Source of the DNA: Candidatus Methanomethylicus oleisabuli
GTDB taxonomy: Archaea > Thermoproteota > Methanomethylicia > Methanomethylicales > Methanomethylicaceae
Assembly: GCA_001717025.1 (NCBI GenBank)
Contig: MAGU01000086.1
Span: forward strand, 1-38,611
Direction of reading: 5' to 3'
DNA length: 38,611 bases
The notes under the pieces are model-generated. The model was given only the letters and a program-made list of their open reading frames with translations, was not told where the DNA came from and ran no database searches. This document shows, in pieces, positions 2-8,228 of the stretch. The translations under genes and the position numbers were made by a program. Position 1 is the stretch's first letter. Every line of letters begins with the position of its first letter.

Positions 2-20
2 AGATGTGTATAAGAGACAG
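2..20. other. Nextera/Tn5 mosaic-end adapter at contig end
   Basis: These 19 bases are identical to the Tn5 mosaic-end sequence used in Nextera libraries. The sequence sits flush with the start of the window, so it is untrimmed sequencing adapter and not genomic DNA. A reading frame starting at base 4 begins Met-Cys-Ile-Arg-Asp-Arg, a spurious peptide typical of adapter-contaminated contigs. True genomic sequence therefore begins at about base 21, and the window starts at a contig end. Confidence 0.96.
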
Positions 21-1113: not shown

Positions 1114-1126
1114 CCAAAGTTTATAT
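1114..1126 (+). promoter_or_regulatory. BRE/TATA promoter of the candidate ncRNA
   Basis: CCAAAG followed by TTTATAT (TATA 1120-1126) is a good archaeal BRE plus TATA element. Transcription would start about 25 bases downstream, near 1148, exactly where a compact stem-rich sequence begins and where no reading frame is open. Confidence 0.55.
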
Positions 1127-1147
1127 CTGCATGGAGCATCAGGCAGA

Positions 1148-1345
1148 GTGGTAGCCGGTTAAATCCTGATTATGGCTTGAAAGCCAAGCCAAGTTAAGTC
1201 AGGGTTAGCGAGCTTGGGAGGGTTCATATCAGTGAGTTGGAATCCGAAGACCCTAAGCAGAGGATTCCCAACAGACTGGAAGAACGGAACCGATCTGAGC
1301 TGAGCTGAATGGAATGGCTCAGAACTGAACCCTCCCTAGCGGATT
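1148..1345 (+). ncRNA. Candidate structured non-coding RNA, family not recognised
   Basis: No plausible protein gene lies here, but the sequence folds strongly. (a) AATCCTGAT (1162-1170) pairs with GTCAGGGTT (1198-1206), enclosing GGCTT/AAGCC (1174-1178 with 1186-1190). (b) A perfect 11-bp stem joins GGGAGGGTTCA (1216-1226) to TGAACCCTCCC (1326-1336) and is extended across a U/U mismatch by GCT/AGC (1212-1214 with 1338-1340). (c) Inside it are two hairpins: GTTGG-AATCC with GGATT-C-CCAAC (1236-1272) and CTGAGC with GCTCAG (1295-1322). A TATA element lies 25 bases before the presumed 5' end and a T-run (1371-1375) follows. I checked it against SRP RNA, RNase P RNA, 5S rRNA and tRNA and found none of their signature motifs. 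Ends are approximate; the strand follows from promoter and T-run. It could also be an origin-associated structure. Confidence 0.5.
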
Positions 1346-1370
1346 ACTTTACGGGCATATTATAAAAGCG

Positions 1371-1376
1371 TTTTTC
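1371..1376 (+). terminator. T-run after the candidate ncRNA
   Basis: GCG-TTTTTC follows the 3' side of the structured segment, as expected for archaeal oligo-T termination. The sequence just before it (ATTATAAAAG, about 1359-1368) is itself TATA-like and could be an extra promoter reading toward orc1. Confidence 0.35.
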
Positions 1377-1411
1377 TTAGGCGGCAGGCTCGACGGGGGC
1401 GCCCCCAGCTC

Positions 1412-8118: not shown

Positions 8119-8228
8119 GCCGAGGTGGCTGAGCGGTTAAGGCGCCGGCCTTGAGTTCCGGCGGTCCCGGGCAGGCAAGCCGGTTCCCTTTTGGGGGAGC
8201 AAGGGTTCGAATCCCTTCCTCGGCGCCA
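8119..8228 (+). tRNA. tRNA-Ser(UGA) with a 22-nt intron, CCA encoded
   Basis: The acceptor stem GCCGAGG/CCTCGGC is perfect, the D-loop (GCTGAGCGGTTAAGGC) and the T-arm (AAGGG-TTCGAAT-CCCTT) are canonical, and CCA is encoded. The sequence is too long unless an intron at the standard 37/38 position (8156-8177) is removed. This leaves anticodon stem CCGGC/GCCGG and loop CTTGAGA with anticodon TGA (8152-8154). The long variable arm and discriminator base G73 agree with serine and exclude leucine. The intron itself pairs with exon sequence (CCGGC versus TTCCGG) in the manner of a bulge-helix-bulge splice site. Confidence 0.9.

Follow-up and report, generated by a model that had tools for sequence, protein, structure and literature searches.

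The intergenic region upstream of the replication initiator gene orc1/cdc6 in Candidatus Methanomethylicus oleisabuli contains a strongly folded element that, judged from sequence comparison among relatives, very probably represents a new RNA family restricted to the genus Methanomethylicus. We hold with high confidence that the element is a selected RNA structure. It would then be a new RNA family, backed by sequence comparison, from the little-studied methane-cycling archaea of the Methanomethylicota, and unexplained RNAs would still exist beside core replication genes. Among the papers searched, none covers both Methanomethylicus and non-coding RNA.

The stretch of DNA analyzed here (38,611 nt, in the following the window) corresponds to contig 83 of a draft genome of an archaeon, 1.37 Mb in size. 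The element is located between an MFS gene on the minus strand (start at about 849) and the divergently oriented orc1 gene on the plus strand (about 1508), and an ORF scan of the window revealed no open reading frame of at least 60 amino acids covering it. The orc1/cdc6 product presents Cdc6 AAA+, lid and winged-helix domains and is 92% identical to the protein of Candidatus Methanomethylicus mesodigestus V1, which places the genome in Methanomethylicus. Beyond orc1, a DNA polymerase small-subunit gene (subunit B/calcineurin-like domains) follows.

Fold, conservation and compensatory changes

The features of the element are compiled in Table 1. The sequence 1146-1370 folds with -83 kcal/mol, compared to -60.3 +/- 4.7 kcal/mol for dinucleotide shuffles (z -4.83, reached by 0 of 200), and 1216-1336 by itself yields z -4.75. 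The earlier note on this DNA had described a perfect 11-bp stem enclosing two hairpins, an additional 9-bp stem on its 5' side and pairing beyond chance; the enclosing stem is exact in the sequence and the shuffles bear out the pairing, while the 5' stem is present with a length of 10 bp. A repeat search lengthens the outer stem to 15 nt at 93% (1212-1226/1326-1340), and of the two hairpins within it a long one occupies 1236-1272 and one of 7 bp 1300-1322. In the modelled fold, the 3' tail may pair with GTGG at 1148-1151.

Table 1. Sequence and structure features of the element, in window coordinates
Feature	Position	Strand	Remarks
TATA-box-like TTTATATC	1120-1127	+	purine-rich BRE-like CCAAAG directly before; sequence reading
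5' hairpin	1162-1206	+	AATCCTGATT (1162-1171) with AGTCAGGGTT (1197-1206), 10 bp; on top a 7-bp stem, 1173-1179/1185-1191; MFE and centroid structures
Outer stem, 5' arm GGGAGGGTTCA	1216-1226	+	partner 1326-1336; weaker extension from 1212; compensatory changes in relatives
Inner stem, 5' arm GTTGGAATCC	1236-1245	+	partner 1262-1272, C1267 bulged; 10 layers in 3/3 species
Loop GAAGACCCTAAGCAGA	1246-1261	+	GAA 1246-1248, GA 1249-1250, CCCTAAGCA, GA 1260-1261; alignments
Inner stem, 3' arm GGATT-C-CCAAC	1262-1272	+	
3' linker AGACTGGAAGAACG	1273-1286	+	conservation moderate vs M. mesodigestus, poor vs G003
Second enclosed hairpin	1287-1326	+	CTGAGCT 1300-1306/GGCTCAG 1316-1322; short internal repeats
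Outer stem, 3' arm TGAACCCTCCC	1326-1336	+	weaker extension to 1340
3' tail GGATTACTTTA	1341-1351	+	identical in M. mesodigestus; not kept in G003
TTATAAAAGCGTTTTTCTT	1360-1378	+	T-run 1371-1375; conserved in three species, 23/23/24 nt after the outer stem

In M. mesodigestus, the element is found at the same place upstream of orc1, with neither the 5' hairpin (about 1157-1199) nor the second of the enclosed hairpins (about 1287-1326). A third copy, again without both hairpins, lies upstream of orc1 in the Methanomethylicus genome G003, whose Orc1 is 73% identical. The element is thus present in both other Methanomethylicus genomes with an assembled orc1-upstream region; in the fourth genome of the genus (G001, 59% complete) orc1 was not found. 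No such element precedes orc1 in the family's other genera. A covariance model of the core, which was built from three sequences so that distant relatives could escape it, gave no match outside Methanomethylicus (three genomes) among 40 genomes of the class and 398 genomes of the Thermoproteota, and a plain DNA search of 151 relatives returned M. mesodigestus as the sole convincing match. Searches for the loop pattern with three mismatches allowed identified, apart from this locus and that of M. mesodigestus, matches at scattered, unrelated places, and the fold is absent in all four viral contigs that carry the loop motif. Within the genomes searched, the element is confined to the genus Methanomethylicus.

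Identity between the window and M. mesodigestus is 84% in the RNA core and 70-71% in the flanks. The shorter elements of the relatives fold no better than usual (z about -1.7 and -1.05; G003 not better than shuffles), and the support that they provide is comparative, not energetic. As read from the alignments, the conserved core comprises one long stem, an inner stem of 10 layers and a loop that is near-invariant; two hairpins, the 5' one and the second enclosed one, are expansions specific to the window genome. The three-way fold is mostly a genome-specific expansion, and the three-way arrangement with its SRP resemblance, noticed earlier, is not supported as an essential part of the anatomy, given that only one of its three hairpins extends beyond the window genome. 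The second hairpin (1287-1326) contains short tandem units (TGAGC TGAGC; GAATG GAATG), which suggest that it grew by slippage.

Compensatory changes in the 1216-1226/1326-1336 stem, set beforehand as a check of the fold, were found in the relatives, in an alignment of three sequences of which two are close. The outer stem of G003 reads GAGAGGGCTC/GAGCCCTCTC in place of GGGAGGGTTC/GAACCCTCCC in the window, which amounts to two full compensatory changes, and the stem extension of G003 adds a change from C-G to U-A; the types observed in the outer stem are C-G to U-A, G-C to A-U and U-A to C-G. For the inner stem, compared layer by layer with the bulge placed by hand, three layers of G003 are altered with pairing kept (G-C to U-A, U-A to A-U and U-A to U-G) and two present A-A mismatches. 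Over both stems, 94% of cells are paired, a value that drops to 37-59% if the partner columns are slid, and five pairs are changed on both sides, a number reached by 3 of 500 shuffles. The loop AGACCCTARGCRGAGGA (AGACCCTARGC; AGACCCUARGC as RNA) is the same in the three species except for one purine and is unpaired in the predicted fold of the window RNA.

Strand and transcript ends

If the element is a selected RNA structure, it is probably transcribed from the plus strand, which is favored by its G-U pairs, the GA frame of the loop, the TATA-like box and the T-run. A flanking promoter and T-run had already been noticed from the sequence, and a TATA-like box and a T-run do flank the element. 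The TATA-like box is identical in M. mesodigestus and aligns with CTTATAAG in G003, and with the usual archaeal spacing the predicted RNA start would fall at about 1147-1152. The block at 1360-1378 reads TTATAAAA-GCG-TTTTTCTT; its T-run is read as plus-strand terminator, TTATAAAA (1360-1367) may alternatively provide a TATA box for the minus strand, or the block could have both roles.

The rival that survives best, unlikely as we consider it, is a minus-strand RNA that uses TTATAAAA as its TATA box, starts at the outer stem and runs toward the MFS gene, either as an sRNA or as the MFS 5' leader. A promoter at TTATAAAA suits the data because its distance from the stem is fixed in the three species (23, 23 and 24 nt, about right for a TATA box) while that of the plus-strand TATA box shifts (96, 55 and 41 nt), and the minus strand folds as well (z -3.74). 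However, the four G-U pairs that fit the plus strand would turn into A-C mismatches, with none gained the reverse way, no good T-run follows and the K-loop-like GA/GA frame exists on the plus strand only.

Less probable still is a protein-bound DNA element, i.e. an inverted repeat or cruciform of a replication origin beside orc1 that acts without an RNA. Orc1/cdc6 and the nearby DNA polymerase small-subunit-like gene suggest an origin, and compensatory changes would preserve an inverted repeat in DNA as well. Yet G-U pairs break DNA symmetry, the most conserved part is the loop, which would be dispensable for such a protein, and the element is flanked by promoter and T-run and does not occur ahead of orc1 in the remaining genera of the family.

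Comparison with known RNA classes

At the gathering threshold, Rfam 15 assigns no family to the locus or to its two relatives, in line with the earlier view of a folded RNA outside known families, and a relaxed search provided only sub-threshold C/D matches. These are sR12 (RF01147; 18.5 bits) and sR33 (RF01120; 11.7 bits) at 1273-1330, with gathering thresholds of 38 and 37. Both were rejected, as the similarity falls on the second hairpin, which is missing from the relatives, and box C is lacking: of the C/D hallmarks, which are box C (RUGAUGA), box D (CUGA) and terminal pairing, inspection by eye found no box C conserved in the three sequences.

In the window and M. mesodigestus the loop is framed as CC-GAA-GA-(9 nt)-GA-GG, in G003 as CC-GGA-GA-(11 nt)-GA-GG, so that the pattern CC-NNN-GA-loop-GA-GG of the K-turn or K-loop that H/ACA guides have within or atop the upper stem occurs in 3/3 species. 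Archaeal guide RNAs use an NNN-GA...GA K-loop layout to which L7Ae binds (PMC7991803, PMC4652768). By pattern, the frame can be assigned to the archaeal K-loop type, and binding of the RNA by L7Ae through this K-loop is conceivable, if tentative.

A pseudouridine guide of the H/ACA type, or an atypical H/ACA-like one, with its pocket between inner and outer stems and the K-loop above, is accordingly worth weighing, and we regard it as slightly less probable than the DNA element. Like archaeal H/ACA guide sRNAs, the element would be an independent gene with a hairpin of about 10 layers under NNN-GA...GA and an internal loop below. In such guides the GA stem comprises 8-11 layers, usually 10, from the pocket to the second G-A pair (PMC4652768), whereas here the 10 layers and two G-A pairs sum up to 12, although a shorter register is possible. 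In addition, the lower stem is too distant (14-22 nt on the 3' side), and no ANA box is common to the three species at 14-16 nt past the pocket-closing pair, where, by eye, the window reads GGA, M. mesodigestus AGA and G003 AAA; M. mesodigestus thus has an ANA box that the window lacks. Nine pocket registers compared with 16S and 23S rRNA yielded no uridine target common to the three species, and neither the H/ACA targets nor antisense matches of loop and tail to rRNA rose above random. A guide function toward rRNA is thus not supported by the sequences.

A diverged SRP RNA, RNase P RNA or other known housekeeping RNA, which the superficial branched fold with a long stem might recall, has practically no probability left and is refuted for the first two: archaeal SRP RNA (RF01857) gives no match here and is encoded elsewhere in the genome (G000:C79, 131 bits), as is archaeal RNase P RNA (RF00373; G000:C81, 208 bits), Rfam is negative, and the SRP helix 8 motif is, as noted before, absent from the element. 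As a general kind, archaeal intergenic trans-acting sRNAs are also among the closest systems, being likewise free-standing, lineage-restricted and structured with a conserved, exposed loop; there is no sequence relationship to a described family, and the target of the element is putative.

Proposed mechanism, a candidate partner and neighboring features

We infer an sRNA mechanism in which a free-standing plus-strand gene between the divergent MFS gene and orc1/cdc6 would produce a structured RNA some 225 nt long, shortened to about 150 nt in the relatives. The conserved outer and inner stems present the near-invariant loop, L7Ae would bind the K-loop-like frame, and the exposed AAGACCCUAARGC loop would base-pair with another RNA, with the two extra hairpins as tolerated expansions. 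Leaving the partner unnamed, we give this explanation as a whole about an even chance.

The best candidate for the partner was obtained by a genome search for the loop complement, in which, beyond the element's own locus, a perfect match of 12 nt lies just downstream of a glnK-like gene, whose C-terminus we take to be that of PII/GlnK. The match belongs to an element orthologous in the window genome and M. mesodigestus (about 1457-1570 of L189, G000:C49 near 3289, with its counterpart in L185), with a conserved inverted repeat ending in CTCCTTTTT. Its sequence reads GTCCGGGG...CCCCGGAC followed by CTCCTTTTT and includes the complement GCUUAGGGUCUU; the complementary segments of the two genomes are identical. 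This element folds with z -3.4, leaving the 12-nt complement partly exposed, has no Rfam match and was found in only these two closest Methanomethylicus genomes, not in G003 (78%-complete assembly) or other genera. The loop-partner duplex is predicted at -25.4 kcal/mol, which 1 of 300 partner shuffles reaches. Since another 12-nt complement match on contig C44 is not conserved and a genome-wide search of this kind has an estimated 0.2 chance matches per genome, the glnK-linked element is a lead only, and its being the loop's pairing partner is improbable on the sequences at hand. Similarly doubtful is the reading as a new family of archaeal RNAs whose K-loop hairpin pairs, through its 12-nt loop, with the single-stranded loop of a second structured RNA encoded directly after glnK; if true, this pairing would link a replication-origin locus to nitrogen regulation.

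Several further features of the window and of related loci can be recorded. Upstream of the RNA gene, at 1040-1100, AAGCGGYGGAAAACA is shared with M. mesodigestus and, by eye, loosely resembles archaeal origin-recognition boxes. Ahead of orc1, the stretch 1449-1507 contains TTTATATC and CTATTTCAAGTGCATCC-TGTGGAGG, which recur across the family and may represent a conserved orc1 promoter and leader, perhaps also an Orc1-binding site. Methanosuratincola-type genomes (L049, L055, L056, L057 and L064) present a different block upstream of orc1, composed of a TATA-like AATTTAAACC, GGATGTAAAAG and then CAACARAAGG...CCATGG, possibly another small RNA or origin element. At the contig end, an exact Nextera transposase adapter (AGATGTGTATAAGAGACAG, window 2-20) marks assembly contamination and truncates the MFS gene, which additionally carries an in-frame TAG stop at 481-483 on the minus strand where the M. 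mesodigestus frame is uninterrupted; the stop would reflect recent inactivation or a sequencing error. Finally, a tRNA of 107 nt at 8119-8225, matched by Rfam without an ARAGORN call, probably carries an intron.
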